From positions 1 through 40,478 of the IMG/VR virus record IMGVR_UViG_3300042691_007097: 40,478 nt of DNA; one strand, written 5' to 3'. The position numbers and the translations under genes were made by a program. Under the pieces are notes generated by a model that did no database searches, was not told where the DNA came from, and was given only the letters and a program-made list of their open reading frames with translations. Shown piece by piece: positions 15,236-30,172 of this stretch; position 1 is the first letter of the stretch, and every line of letters starts with the position of its first letter. This stretch comes from a virus.

Positions 15236-15244
15236 ATTATAGCA
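15236..15244 (-). promoter_or_regulatory. Extended -10 promoter of LamG-like gene
   Basis: Minus-strand TGCTATAAT, 17 bases before the start codon at 15218, with a GGAG ribosome site in between. Confidence 0.6.
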
Positions 15245-15253
15245 GGGCAGAGA

Positions 15254-15748
15254 TTAATTTCTAGGAACCCACATTTTTTCATTATCCTTGTTATGATACC
15301 TTGCCATAACAAAAAGTAAGTCTGAAAGCCTGTTTAAATACCTAGCAATATTTGGATTTATACCTTCGACCTTCCAAACCTCTCGTTCTGCTCTTCTGAC
15401 AACACTTCGTGCATTATGAAGAGGACCAGTAGGAAGAACAAAAGAATTAAGTGGCTCTAGGTATTCATTGTAATCATCAATTACATTTTCTAAATAAGAG
15501 ATTCTTTCTTCTGAAATTGTTATTGTTGGAGCACCAGCAAGTTCTGCACCTAAATCAAATAAATCACTTTGTATTGTATCAATAATGTCATTATGGTATT
15601 CGGTTGCCATGCCAATTGCAGAATTTGCTTCATCAACAGAGCCTATAGCCTCAATTATTGAACTGCTCTTGTCAACTCTTTCATTGATAGCAGTAGATGT
15701 TTGACCATCATCTCCAGTCTTAGTATAAATACGAGTTAAATGTACCAT
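15254..15748 (-). CDS. pduO: Cob(I)alamin adenosyltransferase, PduO type
   Basis: The enzyme transfers adenosyl from ATP to cob(I)alamin to give adenosylcobalamin. The 164-residue length fits the single-domain PduO family. Motifs: RIYTKTGDDGQTS (residues 6-18, ATP binding), IEAIGSVDEANSAIG (32-46), LFDLGAELAG (63-72), FVLPTGPLHNARSVVRRAER (103-122) and YLNRLSDLLFVMAR (137-150). The start is ATG 15748, whose bases overlap the upstream stop as TAATG; a TTG at 15772 would add eight residues without family support. It is the last gene of a coupled operon headed by a B12-dependent ribonucleotide reductase, so it probably supplies that enzyme's cofactor. Confidence 0.93.
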   Translation of the reverse strand: MVHLTRIYTKTGDDGQTSTAINERVDKSSSIIEAIGSVDEANSAIGMATEYHNDIIDTIQSDLFDLGAELAGAPTITISEERISYLENVIDDYNEYLEPLNSFVLPTGPLHNARSVVRRAEREVWKVEGINPNIARYLNRLSDLLFVMARYHNKDNEKMWVPRN

Positions 15749-15912
15749 TAGTGACCTGTCAAAGATCGCCAAACATTGATTGATAACTCGTTTGCTAGAT
15801 AAAGACCTGCTAAATTGATAACTAAATTAAAAATGCTTTTAACAGTTGATGGCTTCTTTTTTATTATTGAAATATATCTTATATTATTTAAATCTTGTTC
15901 AGCAAGTTTCAT
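15748..15912 (-). CDS. 54-residue protein in B12 operon, unknown
   Basis: A small frame between the DUF4430-like gene and the adenosyltransferase. Its ATG overlaps the upstream stop as ATGA and its TAA overlaps the next start as TAATG, so it is translationally coupled on both sides, strong support for a real gene. The product has a basic N-terminal part (YISIIKKKPSTVKS) and a hydrophobic stretch (IFNLVINLAGLYLANELSI) that could be a membrane or amphipathic helix. No family is recognised. Its place suggests a part in cobalamin handling, but nothing in the sequence proves this. Confidence 0.65.
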   Translation of the reverse strand: MKLAEQDLNNIRYISIIKKKPSTVKSIFNLVINLAGLYLANELSINVWRSLTGH

Positions 15913-16364
15913 GGAAATTTAATTTCTCCTTTATCAGCAAATACCAAGCCTAAAGAATCTCCTGGCTTTAAATACTGTTGATCAATAGCAAGTTGACCCC
16001 AACCCCATTCTTTTGTTGGAAATGGAAGAACTTGTTTTTCTTTAATAAGGATAGCCCAATATGCATTTTCTGGTGGCATTACATCACAAGACTCCATGTT
16101 TCTATTTGGCAGCCCATTTACTCTGCATACAACATCAAGTCCATATCTATTAGTTCCTTCTATTTTTATATTTGCTTCTTCTAATAAATCTAAAGCAATT
16201 ATTTTTGTAGATACATCTACACACTTATTTAATTTAGTTCCACTATCTAACGGACCATAATCAATGTATAAATTTATGCAATTATTATCGTTCTTATCTA
16301 TAAACTGCAAACCAGTAAAAGCCAAAACAAGAACTACTACTGATGCCAATATTCTATTAATCAT
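15909..16364 (-). CDS. Membrane-anchored DUF4430/transcobalamin C-domain-like protein
   Basis: A 151-residue protein with an N-terminal hydrophobic helix (ILASVVVLVLAFTGLQF, residues ~5-21) serving as signal or anchor. An extracytoplasmic domain with four cysteines (about 29, 48, 80 and 93) follows. The pattern VDVSTKIIALDLLEEANI, YGLDVVCRVNGLPN, PPENAYWAILI, WGQLAI, then QQYLKPGDSLGLVFA resembles DUF4430 domains, related to the cobalamin-binding C-terminal domain of transcobalamin. Lying between a B12-dependent reductase and a B12 adenosyltransferase, it may bind cobalamin at the cell surface. The homology call is by eye; the binding role is inference. ATG 16364 is preferred over TTG 16376. 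Confidence 0.6.
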   Translation of the reverse strand: MINRILASVVVLVLAFTGLQFIDKNDNNCINLYIDYGPLDSGTKLNKCVDVSTKIIALDLLEEANIKIEGTNRYGLDVVCRVNGLPNRNMESCDVMPPENAYWAILIKEKQVLPFPTKEWGWGQLAIDQQYLKPGDSLGLVFADKGEIKFP

Positions 16365-16368
16365 ATCC

Positions 16369-18399
16369 CTACCCAATCTTTATTTCACATACATCTGTTG
16401 TACAGTATGCTTCACCCATCGCTTCCAAGTTATCTACGCCATCATAAATAGCAGACCAATTAATTTTTTTGATCTTGCCTAAATATGCATTATATTCTTC
16501 CTGTGTAATCTGAGTATATGGTTGTTGTGGATATGTCATATTACCCATTGGTAAAAATGACACAGCCTTTAACTGCCCCTCGTACATATGAAGTGCTGGA
16601 GCAACATGTTTTGTTTCTGTTTCTTTATCAAATGATAAGGTTACAGAAACTCCATTGTCAGACCAATATTTTTGAGTTGTAGCAGCAAGCCCAATCTTTT
16701 CAAAAAGAGTTACATCTTTTTCAGAACGAGGGTGTCCTGAATGAACTGGGAAGTATACTACTGTTGTGTTAGCAGACACCAGATCGGCTTCCATTTTATA
16801 CCCTGCTGCTTTAAACAAATGAATCATCGGATCTGTATTGCCAAAACGAATTGCACGAAGGAAGTAATTTCCTCCTGGACCCCAGTGAACACCTGGAGTT
16901 GCACCAGATAACAAAGATACAGAACCAGATGGCTTGACAGTTGTTACACGAATTGACTCACGAACACATAGCCATTCGGAATATGCATGATCATATTTAC
17001 GAATTGTTTTATATCCTTCATCCATCCAATCACGAACGGTAGGCAAACCATACTCATCAGAAAATGATGCAATACCAGTTAATGATGTTCCGATACGACG
17101 GTTGCGTTGCATAATGCCATTTGTAATCTGCCAGTGTGTAGGCACAAGAGTTACAGTCTTACCATACAAATATGCAAACTTAAGTGTGCGTAAGAAATCT
17201 TCTTTATCTTTGTGCCTATTTAGATGAACCTCTACAAGAGTACAAAGTTCATATGACTCTAGTGGCTGCTCTGCACATGGATTAAAACCCATCACACGAT
17301 AATCTTTACCATCTGCAGGATCTGCAAGGCGACCATAGTTGCGAGCAACATCAAGCCAGATAAATCCTGGTTCTCCATTGTTTGCAATTAGATCAACATA
17401 GTCTTCATACTTAGTTCCTACCGAAGCAGAGATTGAGTTGTTGCTCATCCATGCCCAACCTGGATTTTCTGGATCAAAAGAGTTACGCTCTGGAAATACC
17501 TCTGAATTTTTTAGATTCATAAAGTCTTTATCTCCAGAACCACCAAGAGCAAGAGTTGCAGAACGACGAACATTTCCAGCAACTACACAAGTACCAATGA
17601 GATTAATAATGTCTACAATTGCACGACTATCCAAGTTATCTCCAGCACGATCACCAACAACTTTACGAATTGTTTCATGAAGTTTAATTAGTGGGGCTGG
17701 ACCAGAAGCGGTACCTCCAAAACCTTTAATTGGAGCACCTAAAGGTCTAATCTTAGAATAGTCAAAAATAATCTTTGCCTGATTAGGTTTTAGGTATGAG
17801 TTGAGAAGTAGCCTTACCGATTCTACCCATCCTTCACGAGTATCTGGAATTTCATATGTGATTTCTTCAGATACATTTTTATAAATCTCAAGTTCTTTAT
17901 CTTGACCTAGAGTATCAAACCCTACACCTACACCTAACATTAAGGCATCCATTACCCAAGCAAATAATGCACCTGGATCGTTACGGTCAATATCTCTTGT
18001 TGATACCATCGCACAATTCTGCAGGGAAGCAGAGTTTCTACGCTCCATAGTCATAGGAGTACCAAATGCCCATAGGCCACGTCCAGGAGGTGTCCATTTG
18101 AGGTTAAACATGCGATCATAGGCCTCTTGAGCAGACTTCTGTGCCTTATTATCATTCCATGGCAAACGGTTCTCTTTGGCGTGATTCTTCTGTACTGAGT
18201 ACATTCCTTCAATTACCCGCTTACAAACCTCATACCAGCGTTCTTTTCGTCCATCCTCCTTTACTCTGGAGTAAGTACGAATAAAAGTAATCTCGCCTAG
18301 GGAGTTATTTCCTGCATCGGCAAAGCCAAATGGAGGCTCTAATTCCTTGTATTTATTAACAAATTCGTCCAATAGGCGAAAAGAAAATACGTCTGACAT
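16369..18399 (-). CDS. Ribonucleoside-triphosphate reductase, adenosylcobalamin-dependent (class II, monomeric)
   Basis: A 676-residue enzyme reducing ribonucleotides to deoxyribonucleotides, with adenosylcobalamin as radical source. It has PPGRGLWAFGT (~104-113), the redox cysteine pair C129 (LQNCAMVST) and C386 (YELCTLVEV), the thiyl-radical cysteine and catalytic Glu in FNPCAEQ (C375, E377), VKPSGSVSLLSGATPGVHW, and a C-terminal CTTDVC pair (C666, C671) for re-reduction by thioredoxin. The features and single-subunit length match the Lactobacillus leichmannii type. It heads a four-gene coupled operon ending in a cobalamin adenosyltransferase. The leader is 63 bases or less, starts with a hairpin and is too short for a cobalamin riboswitch. 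Confidence 0.96.
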   Translation of the reverse strand: MSDVFSFRLLDEFVNKYKELEPPFGFADAGNNSLGEITFIRTYSRVKEDGRKERWYEVCKRVIEGMYSVQKNHAKENRLPWNDNKAQKSAQEAYDRMFNLKWTPPGRGLWAFGTPMTMERRNSASLQNCAMVSTRDIDRNDPGALFAWVMDALMLGVGVGFDTLGQDKELEIYKNVSEEITYEIPDTREGWVESVRLLLNSYLKPNQAKIIFDYSKIRPLGAPIKGFGGTASGPAPLIKLHETIRKVVGDRAGDNLDSRAIVDIINLIGTCVVAGNVRRSATLALGGSGDKDFMNLKNSEVFPERNSFDPENPGWAWMSNNSISASVGTKYEDYVDLIANNGEPGFIWLDVARNYGRLADPADGKDYRVMGFNPCAEQPLESYELCTLVEVHLNRHKDKEDFLRTLKFAYLYGKTVTLVPTHWQITNGIMQRNRRIGTSLTGIASFSDEYGLPTVRDWMDEGYKTIRKYDHAYSEWLCVRESIRVTTVKPSGSVSLLSGATPGVHWGPGGNYFLRAIRFGNTDPMIHLFKAAGYKMEADLVSANTTVVYFPVHSGHPRSEKDVTLFEKIGLAATTQKYWSDNGVSVTLSFDKETETKHVAPALHMYEGQLKAVSFLPMGNMTYPQQPYTQITQEEYNAYLGKIKKINWSAIYDGVDNLEAMGEAYCTTDVCEIKIG

Positions 18400-18436
18400 T
18401 TGTTTTTAACAACCTTTCCACAAAAATAATATGAGA

Positions 18437-18455
18437 ACTTTGCAAATCGCAAAGT
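18437..18455 (-). other. 5'-terminal hairpin of reductase mRNA
   Basis: Perfect 7-base-pair stem ACTTTGC/GCAAAGT with loop AAATC (plus-strand reading). Its outer edge falls at the transcript start expected from the -10 element at 18463-18468, so the mRNA would begin with a stem-loop. Confidence 0.5.
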
Positions 18456-18462
18456 AGTGTCT

Positions 18463-18471
18463 AGTATAGCA
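18463..18471 (-). promoter_or_regulatory. Extended -10 promoter of B12/reductase operon
   Basis: Minus-strand TGCTATACT. It is the only promoter-like element seen in the gap between the tail fibre gene and the reductase. Confidence 0.58.
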
Positions 18472-23862: not shown

Positions 23863-24735
23863 TTACATTAAATATCTAATAATTACAATACCGCTTCCAC
23901 CTGAGCCGCCTGCTCTATAGCCAGAGTTTTGTGATCCTCCGCCACCTCCACCTCCAGTATTTGCTGTACCTGAAGTTGCTACTGAAGAATTAGATCCACC
24001 ATTTCCTCCACCACCAGTTCCACCTGTTCCAACTGTTGTTCCAATATATCCAACGGAACCACCACCACCTCCGCCATAATTAACTGAAGAGCCTGAAATT
24101 GAATTTGATACTCCTGCTCCACCATTTCCACCAGTTGTGCTTCCACCAGCAGTTCCAGCAGCGCCTGCTCCTCCGCCACCACCAGCGGTTCCATAGTTAG
24201 CACCACTACCACCTGCTCCCTGATTTCCTTGACCAACTGTTCCAGTTCCTGGAGCACCGCCAGAGTAGCCACATCCACCACCAGATCCTCCAGAATTAGC
24301 ATTTAAAACTGATGGCGATCCTCCTCCACCACCAAAAGAAATTATTCCAGCAAAAGAAGAATCTGATCCGTTTGCACCAATATTTGAAGAAGCAAGTCCT
24401 CCCGCTCCAACCACAACTCTATATTCTGTATTTGCTAAAAGTGATAATTGTGCTTCTAAAGATCCACCGCCACCAGTTGAAGAAACTGTAGACCTAACAC
24501 CTCCTGCTCCTCCACCACCTTTCACATCTGCGCTTGTTCCACCACCACCTGCTCCTCCTCCTCCAACAATTAAATAATCTACTAAATCTAAATTTCTTTT
24601 TGGTATAAAAGTTCCACTTGAAGTAAATGTATGTATTACATAAGAACCAGAAATTGTAACTGTACCACCATGTGCTTGAACAACAGTTAATAAATTATCG
24701 CTTTGAGTTCCGTATTTTAAAGATGATATTGTCAT
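23863..24735 (-). CDS. Glycine-rich adhesin, single module
   Basis: A 290-residue protein with a short N-terminal beta segment ending YVIHTFTSSGTFIPK, then DYLIVGGGGAGGGG and a long polyglycine domain. It ends GGSGGSGIVIIRY, the signature shared by all glycine-rich proteins in this cluster. Such domains resemble the polyglycine receptor-recognition tips of T-even gp38-type adhesins. The ATG overlaps the stop of the upstream paralogue. The adhesin role is inferred from composition and location. Confidence 0.75.
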   Translation of the reverse strand: MTISSLKYGTQSDNLLTVVQAHGGTVTISGSYVIHTFTSSGTFIPKRNLDLVDYLIVGGGGAGGGGTSADVKGGGGAGGVRSTVSSTGGGGSLEAQLSLLANTEYRVVVGAGGLASSNIGANGSDSSFAGIISFGGGGGSPSVLNANSGGSGGGCGYSGGAPGTGTVGQGNQGAGGSGANYGTAGGGGGAGAAGTAGGSTTGGNGGAGVSNSISGSSVNYGGGGGGSVGYIGTTVGTGGTGGGGNGGSNSSVATSGTANTGGGGGGGSQNSGYRAGGSGGSGIVIIRYLM

Positions 24736-25649
24736 TAGAAAGTTATGCTTCCGCTAGAAGTAAAAGTGTATATATGAAAACCACTTGTAGTGGCTTGTGT
24801 AGGAGATCCTGTAGTTGATGCTGCAAGTTTATAATTACTTGGATATCTAATAATAACTATTCCTGAGCCACCTGCTTTGCCAGTATAATCAGAACCAAAA
24901 CTATCTCCAGCACCACCGCCGCCTCCACCTCCTGTATTAACAGAACCAGCGGTTGCAGCAGAATTATATCCACCACTACCTCCTCCACCAGTACCACCTG
25001 ATTTAGTAGAGCCATTACTACCACCTCCACCTCCACCAGCATAAGTAGTTGAAGTACCAGAAATAGATGTTGTTACACCGTCTCCACCTTCACCAACACC
25101 ATCTGTGCCACCTGCTTCTCCAGCACCACCACCTCCACCACCATATTGTGGAGCGCTACTGCTTCCATTTTGTCCAGCGTATCCTTGATTTGATCTGCCA
25201 GTTCCAGCAGTTTCAGATGTTTCAGCAAAACCACCACCACCAGAGCCTCCATCAAAACCATCATTAAATGGTGGAGATCCATATCCTCCAGAACCATATC
25301 CACCACCAAGAGAGATTATGTTATCAAATGATGAATTTGTACCATTTGTTCCATCACAAAGTGGAGGAACATTATTTACTCCACCAGTACCACCTGCACC
25401 GACTACAACAGTATATGACTTTCCACTAACTACAGGAAATCTTGATTCTACTGATGCACCGCCACCAGTCGCATCAACGGTACAACGTAATCCTCCAGCG
25501 CCACCGCCACCGCCTTTATACCTACCACTACCACCGCCACCAGCAACTACAAGAAAATCAACATCATATGGAATACTTATAGATAGTGCTGGATTAGTTA
25601 ATGATAAACCTCTATCTCTAATACCTGTTTTTAAACTTTTAAGTGTCAT
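24735..25649 (-). CDS. Glycine-rich adhesin, single module
   Basis: A 304-residue paralogue of its neighbours: it starts MTLKSLKTGIRDRG like MTLSSIKTGATGNS in the upstream gene, then DVDFLVVAGGGGSG, a glycine-rich body and SGIVIIRYPSNYKL. It differs in carrying a small extra C-terminal beta segment (QATTSGFHIYTFTSSGSITF). In other members that segment leads into a second module, so this protein looks like a two-module protein truncated after the linker. Transcription is probably from upstream. Confidence 0.75.
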   Translation of the reverse strand: MTLKSLKTGIRDRGLSLTNPALSISIPYDVDFLVVAGGGGSGRYKGGGGGAGGLRCTVDATGGGASVESRFPVVSGKSYTVVVGAGGTGGVNNVPPLCDGTNGTNSSFDNIISLGGGYGSGGYGSPPFNDGFDGGSGGGGFAETSETAGTGRSNQGYAGQNGSSSAPQYGGGGGGAGEAGGTDGVGEGGDGVTTSISGTSTTYAGGGGGGSNGSTKSGGTGGGGSGGYNSAATAGSVNTGGGGGGGAGDSFGSDYTGKAGGSGIVIIRYPSNYKLAASTTGSPTQATTSGFHIYTFTSSGSITF

Positions 25650-25656
25650 GTTTTTC

Positions 25657-27393
25657 CTATGCCGCCAAATATCTAACTATTACTATACCTGAACCGCCTG
25701 CTTCTCCTTGTATATTATTGGCAGTTCCATCTCCACCACCACCACCACCGCCTGTATTGGCTGTTCCAGCCACACTAGCAATACTTGGCGTTGCGCCGTT
25801 ACCACCGCCACCTTTTTCAGAAGTTGTAGATGTACCACCACCTAGACCAACAGTATCGCCACTTGCGCTATTAGTTCCCCCTCCACCGCCACCTGCGTAA
25901 TAAACAGCGCTTCCACTAATAGAGTTAGAGGTAGCGATACCACCATTACCTCCATTATATTTATTGCTGTTATTATCACCAGTAGCACCAATTCCGCCTG
26001 AGCCACCACCGCCACCTGAACCACTAGAACCTGTAGTAGAACCACCTGCATATCCTTCTACTGGTGAATAACTGCCTTCATTTCCACTTCCACCCGATGT
26101 ATTTGTATTTGAACGAGAGCCACCACCTGAGCCACCTGCTTGACCTGAATAAATAGAAACTGTGGCAGAACCACCTCCACCACCGCCAGTTGATGTAGTA
26201 GAACCAAATACTGAATTAGAGCCTTTACCACCTCTTGATGAAATATTAGGTGGGCGAGAACCACCCGCTCCTACAGTAACTGTATAGTTTGTTCCAGATG
26301 TTAAACTTTGTGAAGTCAAGTAACGATAGCCACCAGCACCTCCGCCACCGCCTGCTTCATATCCACCAGCGCCACCACCAGCGACTACTAAGTAATCAGC
26401 GGTTAAATTAGCAGTAGGTGTAAAAGTATCTGATGAAGTAAATGTATGAATGATATAACTACCACTAGAAGTTACAGTTCCACCAGTTGCTTTTTGACCA
26501 ATAATAAATGGAATAAAATTTCCAGAAGAATTAAAAGTATGTATTGTATAACCACTTGTTGTGCTTATTGTACCGCCGCTTGCTTGTTGAGATCCATCAT
26601 AACGAACAACAACTTTTCCTGATCCACCAGAACCACCAGCCCTATTATTTCCTGAACCTCCACCGCCTCCACCGCCAAGATTTGTAGTACCAGCAGTTCC
26701 AGTTTCAGTTCCAAATCCACCACCAGCACCGCCACCGCCACTACCACCAGCACCGCCAGCAACAATATTTTGTGAACCACCGCCTCCACCGCCTGCGTAG
26801 GTAACAGATGAACCAGTAATTGAAACTGCTACACCAGCACCACCTGCTCCTGCGGCTCCAGCACCTCCACCGATAACATTTGCGGCTTGCGCTCCAGCGC
26901 CGCCACCACCAGCACCTCTTTGAGGTTCAGCATTGTTGGATCCATTTCCACCTGAATATCCTTGATTTGGAATAGCAAGTCCTCCATTTGGACCTGAAAC
27001 ACTATCTGAATAAGAACAACCTCCACCGCCTGAACCACCATTACCAGCACTAACAGTTACTGGCTGTTGACCATTACCACCACCTAATGATGTAATATTT
27101 GAAAATACAGAAGAATTACCATTTGTATTGCTGCTTCCACCTGCTCCAACAGTAACTGTATAAGATGTTCCTCTTTTTAATGATAACGGAGATTCTAAGG
27201 GACCTCCTCCACCAGTAGCAGTTACAGTTGAGCGAAGTCCACCTGCACCTCCACCACCACCATGATTATATCCACCACCGCCACCACCTGCAACTACTAA
27301 GTAGTCAACATTTTGAAGATGAGTGTTTAAACTTAAATTGCTTACAAGTAAACTGTTACCAGTAGCACCAGTCTTAATGCTGCTTAATGTCAT
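25657..27393 (-). CDS. Glycine-rich adhesin, two tandem modules
   Basis: A 578-residue protein with two complete polyglycine modules. Each begins DYLVVAGGGxGG and ends GGSGxV(V/I)VRY. The linker between them (about residues 270-335) has two ATGGT/ASGGT...YxIHTFxSSGxF units. The start MTLSSIKTGATGNSL matches the following paralogue. The duplicated structure suggests unequal recombination between modules. It is likely a host-recognition protein. Cysteine is nearly absent. The opposite strand looks open only because GGN codons read as proline. Confidence 0.77.
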   Translation of the reverse strand: MTLSSIKTGATGNSLLVSNLSLNTHLQNVDYLVVAGGGGGGYNHGGGGGAGGLRSTVTATGGGGPLESPLSLKRGTSYTVTVGAGGSSNTNGNSSVFSNITSLGGGNGQQPVTVSAGNGGSGGGGCSYSDSVSGPNGGLAIPNQGYSGGNGSNNAEPQRGAGGGGAGAQAANVIGGGAGAAGAGGAGVAVSITGSSVTYAGGGGGGSQNIVAGGAGGSGGGGAGGGFGTETGTAGTTNLGGGGGGGSGNNRAGGSGGSGKVVVRYDGSQQASGGTISTTSGYTIHTFNSSGNFIPFIIGQKATGGTVTSSGSYIIHTFTSSDTFTPTANLTADYLVVAGGGAGGYEAGGGGGAGGYRYLTSQSLTSGTNYTVTVGAGGSRPPNISSRGGKGSNSVFGSTTSTGGGGGGSATVSIYSGQAGGSGGGSRSNTNTSGGSGNEGSYSPVEGYAGGSTTGSSGSGGGGGSGGIGATGDNNSNKYNGGNGGIATSNSISGSAVYYAGGGGGGTNSASGDTVGLGGGTSTTSEKGGGGNGATPSIASVAGTANTGGGGGGGDGTANNIQGEAGGSGIVIVRYLAA

Positions 27394-27411
27394 TTAGTGC
27401 AGCCCCCTAAA

Positions 27412-27747
27412 TTATGAGATTTCAGTTCCGAAGGCTTGGAATACTAGGTTAGCGTTAGATGCATAAACAGAAACAACATCTGAAGCATCAAGAGTAATAC
27501 CAGCAGTAATAACTGTTGTATCAGATGCTCCTAATGTAACATCATATGCAAAATAGTGTTTATTTGCAAGTGATTCACCATCAGGACGAACTGCAATACG
27601 ATATGTTGCAGATGTTGCTGCAATATTAGCAACAGAAATTGTTGATATTACAGCCTGTGTACCAGATGTTGATGGAACGGTATACAGAGTTGTTGATGTT
27701 GTAGCAGCAGGATTTAACTGTCCTAGTACCTTATACGTTGTTGCCAT
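27412..27747 (-). CDS. Small virion-type protein (fibre cluster)
   Basis: A 111-residue beta-rich protein, MATTYKVLGQLNPAATTSTT followed by LYTVPSTSGTQAVISTISVA and GITLDASDVVSVYAS. This start and pattern are familiar from small structural proteins encoded near tail fibres in marine and freshwater phages, and it is probably a beta-sandwich head or tail decoration protein. It has its own promoter and an AAGGAG ribosome site. Exact function unknown. Confidence 0.6.
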   Translation of the reverse strand: MATTYKVLGQLNPAATTSTTLYTVPSTSGTQAVISTISVANIAATSATYRIAVRPDGESLANKHYFAYDVTLGASDTTVITAGITLDASDVVSVYASNANLVFQAFGTEIS

Positions 27748-27767
27748 TATATTTTCTCCTTATTCCT

Positions 27768-27776
27768 ATTCTACCA
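27768..27776 (-). promoter_or_regulatory. Extended -10-like element
   Basis: Minus-strand TGGTAGAAT, one base from the recurrent motif, 20 bases before the ATG at 27747. Confidence 0.5.
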
Positions 27777-27779
27777 CAC

Positions 27780-28289
27780 CTATGCACCCATTAGCATAAA
27801 TGGATGGAATGATTCTCCAGTAATTGTTACGCTACCGCCGAGGGAAACAGAAGAACCGTTAATGGTAATGCTATTTGATGTTAGTGCAATAGTTGGATTT
27901 GGTCCTGCACCATTTGTTACTGTGATTCCTGTACCTGCAGAAACTGCTGTAATGTCTCCACCAGCCTGCCAGGTTGAACCATCATAAAATTGTATTTGAT
28001 TTAGTGCTGATCCACCAGCATCTTGACGAACAAAACAAATTGTTCCACGAACTGGTGTAGCAAGTGCTGCGTCACGAGCAGCGGGATTTAAAAAATTATT
28101 AAACCCATAATTCATTGTTGCATAATCATCAAATTCGACGGTATTTAAAAATGTCTGTGCTGCTGTAAATTCATATGCAACAGAAGTATCCATCTTTCCA
28201 GCAACTGCATACCATACACCATCTGTAGAGGTTGCCCCCTGTTTGAACATGTAGGCTGGTCTGCCCTCATTATCGAATGTAATTGCCAT
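27780..28289 (-). CDS. Tail fibre protein
   Basis: A 169-residue protein beginning MAITFDNEGRPAYMFKQGAT. It has a helical shaft part (NYGFNNFLNPAARDAALATP), FYDGSTWQAGGD, and the phrase ITAVSAGTGITVTNGAGPNP shared with the fibres at 30180 and 32835. It ends SFHPFMLMGA. The shared phrase marks a family of fibre segments in this phage. Own promoter and AAGGAG ribosome site. Confidence 0.68.
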   Translation of the reverse strand: MAITFDNEGRPAYMFKQGATSTDGVWYAVAGKMDTSVAYEFTAAQTFLNTVEFDDYATMNYGFNNFLNPAARDAALATPVRGTICFVRQDAGGSALNQIQFYDGSTWQAGGDITAVSAGTGITVTNGAGPNPTIALTSNSITINGSSVSLGGSVTITGESFHPFMLMGA

Positions 28290-28309
28290 CTATGTACTCC
28301 TTCTGTGTA

Positions 28310-28318
28310 ATTATAGCA
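28310..28318 (-). promoter_or_regulatory. Extended -10 promoter of fibre gene
   Basis: Minus-strand TGCTATAAT, 20 bases before the ATG at 28289. Confidence 0.6.
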
Positions 28319-28366
28319 GATATTGTTTTTATAAATACCCGCTTGTTGGAAATGTGGTTTGTCATT

Positions 28367-30172
28367 TTATATTGCATATCTAATAATAACTACTCCTGAG
28401 CCACCGTTACCGCCAGGATAAAGTCTTGTATTTGGTTCTCCACCACCACCAGATCCAGTATTTTGCAATCCTGCAGTTGGTCCATCTTTAATTGCATGAC
28501 CTCTACCTTTACCGCCACCACCAGATCCTCCGCTAGCACCGTTAGTTGCAGAACCGCTACCTGAACCACCGCCACCGCCTGCTCTAGTTATAGATGTGCC
28601 AGTTATAGAGTTAGCAAGACCATTACCGCCTGTTCCTGCAATAGTAGAAACTGTAGAAGTCATACCAACAGCGCCAGCACCGCCTCCGCCACCACCTGCG
28701 CCAGAACCACCACCGTTATAACCTTGAACTGGCGAGGCTGTTCTAGTTCCACCGCCACCACCGTCAGAACCTCCACCACCTGAACCACCAGCACCGCCAG
28801 TTTGTGCATTTCTACAACCACCGCCGCCTCCACCTGTTGCAGTAATAGTTGAAAATACAGAGTTAGAGCCTGCTCCACCTGTTATATTACTTTGTTCTGA
28901 ACCAGCACCTCCAGCACCTACAGTAACTGTGTAGGCTTGAGAAGTAACAGATAATGCTGAACCAGCACTTCCACCACCACCTTGAGTTCCAGTGCTTGTA
29001 AGGTATCCACCTGCTCCACCACCTGCGCCAATATCATGACCACCAGCACCGCCACCTGCAATAACTAAATAATCAACAGTTAAAGATTGATTTGGAGTAA
29101 AGGTTCCTGATGTGTTAAATGTATGAATCCAATAAGTACCATCGGTTGTAATATATCCACCTGTTGCTTTTGGACTTTCAGCAGACAGAGTAGTTGTAAA
29201 AGTGCCACTTGATCTAAAAGTATGTATCATATTTGTGCCGTCTGTAGTAATCTCACCACCAGTTGCTTTTTGTACTGTTCCAGAATATCTAATAATTACA
29301 ATGCCAGATCCACCAGATCCTCCATCACCTTCTGTACCACCTTGTGGAACGCCACTCGATCCATAACCACCACCTCCGCCACCACCACTACTTTCTGAAC
29401 CTGAGTGTCCGTAGTATCCAGAACCTGGAAGATTACCATTTCCACCGCCACCTTTTTGTTGACCAGAAGCAACTCCACCACCATATCCACCTCTACCAGT
29501 TTGTGCACCACCTCCGCCACCACCAGCGTAATAAAGAGAAGAACCACTAATTTCAACTGCTAATGCAACACCGCCTTCTCCACCACGAGTTGAAATACCA
29601 ACTGAGCCAGCACCTCCAGCACCGCCACCGCCACCTCCTGCTTCATTTGTAGTTACACCAGCAGCACCACCATACCCCTGTCCACTTGGATCTGCAGCAC
29701 CACCACTTCCATTATAAGCACCACTTGCTCCTCCACCACCTGAACCACCTGCTCTACCATCTCTTGAACCACTACTCGAATCATTATCAACACCTCCACC
29801 ACCACCGCCACCTGTTGAAGTTACGGTTGTGATACCTGTACCTGAGATAGATGAATTACTGCCATTACTACCAGGGGTATCAACTGTAGTAGCACCAGAA
29901 CCACCGCTGCCAACTGTTATAGTGTACGCTGTGCTTGGTAACAAAGTTATTTTTGATTCTAAAGATCCACCGCCACCAGTTGCAGTTACAGTGGAACGAA
30001 GTCCACCAGCACCGCCACCACCTGCGCCATACGAACCAGGAGGATTATCATCACGACCATAACCACCGCCGCCACCTCCAGCGACAATCAAATAATCAAT
30101 AATAAATCCACTAGCAGCATTACCCCACCCAAAAACCTTTGCTCCACCGATCTGAGTTCTAATTGGACTCAT
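28367..30172 (-). CDS. Glycine-rich adhesin, two tandem modules
   Basis: The largest of the glycine-rich proteins (601 residues). It starts MSPIRTQIGGAKVFGWGNAA, related to the start of the propeller-like gene at 32822, then DYLIVAGGGGGGYG. It has two polyglycine modules, each ending GGSG(I/V)VIIRY, with a linker holding two KATGG(E/Y)ITTDGT...IHTF units. The different N-terminus from the MTLSS-type paralogues suggests module shuffling onto another anchor. The ribosome site is weak, so coupling to the gene 8 bases upstream is likely. Confidence 0.77.
   Translation of the reverse strand: MSPIRTQIGGAKVFGWGNAASGFIIDYLIVAGGGGGGYGRDDNPPGSYGAGGGGAGGLRSTVTATGGGGSLESKITLLPSTAYTITVGSGGSGATTVDTPGSNGSNSSISGTGITTVTSTGGGGGGGVDNDSSSGSRDGRAGGSGGGGASGAYNGSGGAADPSGQGYGGAAGVTTNEAGGGGGGAGGAGSVGISTRGGEGGVALAVEISGSSLYYAGGGGGGAQTGRGGYGGGVASGQQKGGGGNGNLPGSGYYGHSGSESSGGGGGGGYGSSGVPQGGTEGDGGSGGSGIVIIRYSGTVQKATGGEITTDGTNMIHTFRSSGTFTTTLSAESPKATGGYITTDGTYWIHTFNTSGTFTPNQSLTVDYLVIAGGGAGGHDIGAGGGAGGYLTSTGTQGGGGSAGSALSVTSQAYTVTVGAGGAGSEQSNITGGAGSNSVFSTITATGGGGGGCRNAQTGGAGGSGGGGSDGGGGGTRTASPVQGYNGGGSGAGGGGGGAGAVGMTSTVSTIAGTGGNGLANSITGTSITRAGGGGGSGSGSATNGASGGSGGGGKGRGHAIKDGPTAGLQNTGSGGGGEPNTRLYPGGNGGSGVVIIRYAI

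Follow-up and report, generated by a model that had tools for sequence, protein, structure and literature searches.

Lactobacillus delbrueckii carries the gene cluster nrdJ-cbrS-cbrT-pduO (PMC5997447), in which a class II ribonucleotide reductase (RNR), B12 uptake component(s) and the adenosyltransferase PduO are encoded together. A locus with the same logic and nearly the same order is described herein from a phage, IMG/VR virus record IMGVR_UViG_3300042691_007097, the whole of which (40,478 nt, or 40.5 kb) was analyzed and is referred to as the window. Its four genes encode, in order, a class II RNR, two small proteins designated P0003 and P0002, and PduO. The L. delbrueckii cluster differs from it in being bacterial and in taking up B12 through CbrT, an S component that needs an energy-coupling factor (ECF) module, whereas the phage has an anchored protein resembling the beta domain of transcobalamin (P0003) and a 54-amino acid (aa) membrane protein (P0002).

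Other described systems resemble parts of this locus. Actinobacterial ECF loci that are controlled by cobalamin riboswitches and encode surface proteins of the SCO2321/SCO2322 families hold distant P0003-like genes next to ECF genes; the phage and the P0003-bearing locus of Nanopelagicales are both without ECF genes, and no P0002 was noticed at the ECF loci. The beta domain of transcobalamin and intrinsic factor, DUF4430 (PF14478), which is located at the C-terminus of transcobalamins (PMC4350170), shares a predicted fold and a colinear profile alignment with P0003; P0003 differs from these proteins in having no alpha6/alpha6 barrel, and the identity is 12-15%. BtuM, a single-protein B12 uptake candidate (PMC6072759), is likewise a small ECF-free system, and binds cobalt through a cysteine, as the terminal His or Cys of P0002 homologues might do.

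Class II ribonucleoside-triphosphate reductase (RTPR) is a well-known type of phage RNR, and regulation or enhancement of B12 uptake by phages has been raised as a possibility (PMC10547690). No description of phage B12-uptake genes was found in the literature searched, preprints and most subscription journals being outside the search. Thus, while the nrdJ-uptake-pduO logic is already known from L. delbrueckii, neither the phage version nor this uptake pair was found in the searched literature or in INPHARED, in line with an earlier reading of the window made from the sequence alone (the sequence-only reading), which knew of no phage unit combining reductase, surface protein and PduO.

The evidence throughout is computational. 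We consider it likely that the locus is a phage-borne B12 acquisition-and-activation module feeding the phage's own class II RNR. P0003, tethered by its N-terminal anchor, would display a transcobalamin-beta-like domain outside the cell and capture cobalamin, and P0002 would cooperate with it in passing the corrinoid across the membrane, a step for which a host importer may be recruited. PduO would then adenosylate the imported cobalamin to adenosylcobalamin (AdoCbl), which RTPR would use to make deoxyribonucleoside triphosphates in phage replication. From the evidence below we infer both transport by the pair and a benefit during infection.

P0003, P0002 and a riboswitch-controlled host operon

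Searched directly against Pfam, PHROGs, NCBIfam and, by sequence, the PDB, P0003 gave nothing meaningful, and weak matches to RimP and CDC14B were discarded as chance. The sequence-only reading had likened this protein to DUF4430 and transcobalamin; the relation holds up by profile-profile and fold comparison, not by a direct Pfam match. Aligned with actinobacterial DUF4430 members by hhalign, P0003 scored 35.8 (P 2.1e-5) and was colinear over 105 columns, whereas the best of 100 shuffles scored 25.7 and reversed controls 13.7 and 11.2. An AlphaFold2 model built from an 8-sequence alignment was too poor (predicted local distance difference test, pLDDT, 55), and one from 47 sequences was used instead, with a mean pLDDT of 83 and most core blocks >90. 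In a Foldseek search of the PDB with this model, the top 17 matches were all beta domains of transcobalamin, intrinsic factor or DUF4430 (3u7z), with probabilities of 0.98-1.00, and matches below these reached at most ~0.5. Among the 17 is 5np4, an isolated transcobalamin beta domain with cyanocobalamin. The template modeling score (TM-score) by isolated-domain targets was 0.54-0.66; a fold search of BFVD gave no informative match. P0003 is thus predicted to share the DUF4430/transcobalamin beta-domain fold, and it may bind cobalamin. Its four cysteines are invariant, and its N-terminal hydrophobic segment fits a membrane anchor.

A scan of contigs with P0003 gave no host copies; these were found by a whole-genome profile search, with homologues in 10 of 201 Nanopelagicales (acI) genomes (E 1e-41 to 1e-46). 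In all ten, an AdoCbl/cobalamin riboswitch lies 52-74 bp upstream of the P0003 start codon, and in four of five such genomes tested it is the only RF01482 match. Eight nt downstream of P0003 follows a P0002-like membrane protein of 53-56 aa, ending in WR-x-W-G-G-H(Y) or WR-x-W-[GA]-A-C. The host locus is not a prophage, since its flanking genes are chromosomal and syntenic. The phage pair and this two-gene AdoCbl-riboswitch operon of Nanopelagicales have a common ancestry. Neither the window (searched at E<=1) nor ten phage loci (at the gathering score) yielded a cobalamin riboswitch; expression of the phage pair should therefore escape shut-off by high AdoCbl. A second riboswitch-like site for AdoCbl in the Nanopelagicales genome G328 (L316, C1:253658-253798) precedes open reading frames (ORFs) resembling a ZIP-like permease, glutaredoxin, NrdH and NrdI. 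Just past these lies a second RNR-type match, and the choice of RNR class at this locus may depend on B12.

The same chromosomal slot in Planktophila holds a riboswitch, an SCO2322-family secreted protein, EcfT, a fused EcfA and an S component. The pair is a host-type, riboswitch-controlled unit in a slot that relatives use for an ECF transporter, a point that goes beyond the sequence-only reading. Riboflavin specificity of the Planktophila S component was considered and rejected, as the match is a weak one and B12 is favored by the riboswitch. The Planktophila EcfT, EcfA and EcfS had no tblastn match in the window or the phage loci. In other Actinomycetota, P0003-like genes occurred in 11 of 397 genomes; nine loci were read, and homologues of the ECF ATPase and S component stand beside the P0003-like gene in every one, with cobalamin riboswitches in three. 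At L355, a SCO2321/prenyltransferase-like surface protein is also encoded, which we take to be of the fold class of transcobalamin's other half. At L351-L354, a single ORF of ~1000 codons carries the homologies to both the ECF ATPase and the S component, which points to a fused transporter.

The P0003-bearing hosts encode class II NrdJ (9/10) and PduO (10/10). FecCD/BtuC was found in none of the eight such genomes tested, and CbiQ (EcfT) was missing from five of the eight. These findings bear on a variant of the module that differs in its transport step: the pair might be an accessory to a host transporter (an ECF or other ATP-binding cassette (ABC) importer), binding B12 outside and docking on host membrane machinery, with the phage's contribution confined to the capture part, as the rate-limiting one. 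We give this variant serious weight, if somewhat less than an even chance. The ECF transporter beside the P0003-like gene in the nine other Actinomycetota, the secreted protein and ECF genes in the Planktophila slot, and the many ABC ATPases of the hosts all speak for it; yet in G322, read at its full length of 1,238,108 bp, neither EcfT nor EcfS was found (the latter with a profile built from sequences trimmed of fused ATPase ORFs), BtuC was not found in this genome either, neither CbiQ nor FecCD was found in G320, and no counterpart of P0002 was noticed at the ECF loci.

P0002 follows P0003 in 79 of 81 scored viral copies, and its C-terminus reads D[IVL]WR[SA]x[TRK]GH in 79/79. In phages and hosts alike it constantly accompanies P0003 and is no incidental neighbor. 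The end bearing WR-x-x-x-G-H is probably extracytoplasmic; we infer both this topology and the role of the protein. At this end, P0002 homologues alternate between His and Cys, which is suggestive of a cobalt ligand: corrinoid cobalt is bound by His in base-off enzymes and by Cys in BtuM (PMC6072759).

The enzymes and the cassette among viruses

The sequence-only reading had correctly named both enzymes. The RNR scored 361.8 bits against TIGR02505 (cut-off, 340.05) and 8e-103 against PDB 1l1l, the RTPR of Lactobacillus leichmannii, with whose cysteines its own align (QNCA, NPCAE, ELC and CTTDVCEI). By family score and by its conserved active-site and C-terminal redox cysteines it is a class II monomeric RTPR, for which AdoCbl-dependent reduction of ribonucleoside triphosphates is predicted. 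RTPR was matched in 1198 INPHARED records, the closest deposited relatives being 62% identical to the phage RNR. PduO scored 152.8 bits against TIGR00636 (cut-off, 108.45); its motifs TKTGDDG, VDEANS, SFVLPTG, HNAR, RRAER and YLNRLSD are intact and align with 2g2d/6wgs. It is a PduO-type adenosyltransferase with a predicted intact ATP/cobalamin site, and its closest bacterial relatives are in Nanopelagicales (49-51%). PduO matches in INPHARED, mostly short unannotated records of <41% identity, were set aside, unchecked, as probable bacterial DNA; OR846747.1 and CAKLQH020000002.1, for example, are phage-labelled records that resemble bacterial DNA.

Three viral scans gave 9, 123 and 150 P0003-encoding stretches, overlapping sets that were reduced to 87 non-redundant IMG/VR loci. 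The gene order recurs widely among them. A class II RNR lies within 350 bp of P0003 in 50 of the 74 loci with at least 600 bp upstream, and PduO lies downstream in 77/80 (those with at least 700 bp downstream). Counted from the P0003 stop, P0002 starts at -4 or -10, and the start of PduO is TAATG in all 75 scored copies; the junctions recur far beyond chance. Median ratios of nonsynonymous to synonymous polymorphism (pN/pS) were 0.33 for P0003, 0.38 for P0002 and 0.10 for PduO, indicating purifying selection. The cassette accompanies close RNRs as well as one only 28% identical (L007), and also occurs in a 136-kb contig (L169) and among recA/ssb-like genes (L075-L088, L147 and L155; neighbors named by ORF reading, not family searches). 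By the same kind of reading, an ORF resembling S-adenosylmethionine decarboxylase lies near the cassette in L073, L137 and L142 (e.g. L142:7342-7782). P0003 was found in no INPHARED phage at E<=0.01, and in Actinomycetia phage DSL-LC01 the cassette is missing behind the RNR.

The loci without an adjacent RNR (24/74), together with the occurrence of DUF4430 domains in many actinobacterial proteins of varied size, would suit a P0003 whose ligand is not B12 but a metal, glycan or other small molecule, or which excludes other phages at the surface, with its proximity to RNR and PduO incidental. We find this unlikely in view of the host riboswitch control and ECF linkage, the near-constant linkage to PduO across unrelated phage contexts, and the class II RNR encoded elsewhere on two large contigs that lack adjacency, G001 (104 kb) and G003 (91 kb). 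In smaller contigs of the same types, which are fragments, no class II RNR was seen.

Phage P0003 sequences group in a single clade that has the host clade as its sister (support 97/94), which is consistent with one acquisition, the direction of transfer being presumed. Because PduO and NrdJ lie elsewhere in host genomes, away from P0003-P0002, the cassette must have been assembled. That it is a stray piece of an ordinary host operon, acquired by chance and without a role in infection, is a very improbable account of a pair clearly related to the host operon, given the 87 phage loci, the purifying selection, the constant junctions, the loss of the riboswitch and the single diverged phage clade; a pN/pS close to 1, or phage copies that are often disrupted, would have fitted it, and neither was seen.

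Gene layout of the window

The four genes, all on the minus strand (Table 1), are intact and coupled as the sequence-only reading described. The RNR stop occupies 16371-16369, with the P0003 start 4 nt after it; the overlap of P0003 with P0002 is ATGA (15909-15912), and the junction of P0002 with PduO, which overlap at 15748, reads TAATG. A single promoter, also proposed by that reading, is plausible: a candidate extended -10 element, TGCTATACT, precedes RNR, but a scan of the region found 15 promoter-like sites against 14.0 in shuffles, which is not above chance. Between this element and the RNR start is a perfect 6-bp inverted repeat (CTTTGC-GATTT-GCAAAG, 18454-18438), a possible operator. 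A further extended -10, TGCTATAAT, after PduO suggests that the operon ends there.

Table 1. Positions of the B12 locus and its putative flanking signals in the window
Feature	Position (strand)	Length	Characteristics
Class II monomeric AdoCbl-dependent ribonucleoside-triphosphate reductase (RTPR/NrdJ)	16369..18399 (-)	676 aa	TIGR02505, PF17975, PF21995, PDB 1l1l
P0003	15909..16364 (-)	151 aa from ATG	N-terminal transmembrane/signal anchor and predicted exported beta domain with 4 cysteines; transcobalamin-beta/DUF4430-like; homologue of Nanopelagicales AdoCbl-riboswitch gene
P0002	15748..15912 (-)	54 aa	Single-pass membrane protein, C-terminal WRSLTGH; homologue of 53-56 aa protein behind host P0003 gene
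PduO-type ATP:cob(I)alamin adenosyltransferase	15254..15748 (-)	164 aa	TIGR00636, PF01923, PDB 2g2d/6wgs
Candidate promoter region	18438..18471 (-)		Putative extended -10 TGCTATACT at 18471-18463, upstream of RNR
Putative boundary after PduO	15236..15253 (-)		Putative extended -10 TGCTATAAT ahead of next (tail-region) gene

The window also encodes head, portal, tape-measure and tail genes; no tRNA was found in it. Four ORFs at 23863-30172, in a stretch of strong GC skew, match one family of unknown function (phrog_2295) and are likely an expanded tail or adhesin gene set. Gene affinities, the sole basis for assigning a host, indicate that the phage probably infects the dominant actinobacteria of freshwater lakes (Nanopelagicales, acI), which are without CRISPR (PMC10202952).

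Proposed B12 acquisition by phage and host

The B12-linked role of P0003 is argued from the fold matches, the host riboswitch unit, the ECF linkage, and the presence in hosts of class II RNR and PduO without BtuC, a case stronger than could be made from the window itself. Several observations weigh against the acquisition module. P0003 had no match to the Pfam DUF4430 model (PF14478) even at E<=10; its best Foldseek E-value was only 3e-3, and its TM-score by query 0.39-0.46. P0002 is single-pass and, at 54 aa, has no obvious pore. BtuM, for comparison, is larger and has several membrane helices. As the ten host loci are orthologous, in effect a single locus, they do not represent ten independent associations. 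The S component of the ECF loci is weakly matched, to a riboflavin-type model, its B12 specificity being argued from the riboswitches. Moreover, RNR is not adjacent in 24 of the 74 viral loci, and L067, L068, L132 and L140 have P0003-P0002 without PduO directly downstream (L067:263-4397; L132:5998-6920), so that P0003-P0002 is itself the core of the cassette.

Among the findings that the sequence-only reading had named as telling against it were a lack of fold similarity and unconserved neighbors; these two were examined, and neither holds. It is partly supported overall. Its proposal that the operon frees the phage from the host's B12 pool was overstated: no B12 biosynthesis gene was recognized in the phage, which therefore depends on external B12, and the locus would at most boost capture and adenosylation.

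A bolder form of the module, which we put forward tentatively and hold to be possible but doubtful, is that P0003 and P0002 alone make up a minimal B12 importer independent of ECF and BtuCDF. It would consist of an anchored transcobalamin-beta-like receptor and a single-pass protein of ~50 residues; the terminal His of the latter, lying outside the cytoplasm and replaced by Cys in some hosts, may be a ligand of the corrinoid cobalt. Streamlined lake actinobacteria would have exchanged their ECF transporter for such an importer behind the same riboswitch, and many phages would have captured it as a source of B12 for an RNR of their own.

In the environment, many phages rely on a B12-dependent RNR, and the cassette offers a concrete, widespread gene set with which phage B12 uptake can be tested. 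A further implication concerns Nanopelagicales genomes that depend on B12 but yielded no known importer of it: the cassette points to a pair for B12 acquisition there that had not been described, which bears on the B12 limitation of both host and phage in lakes.

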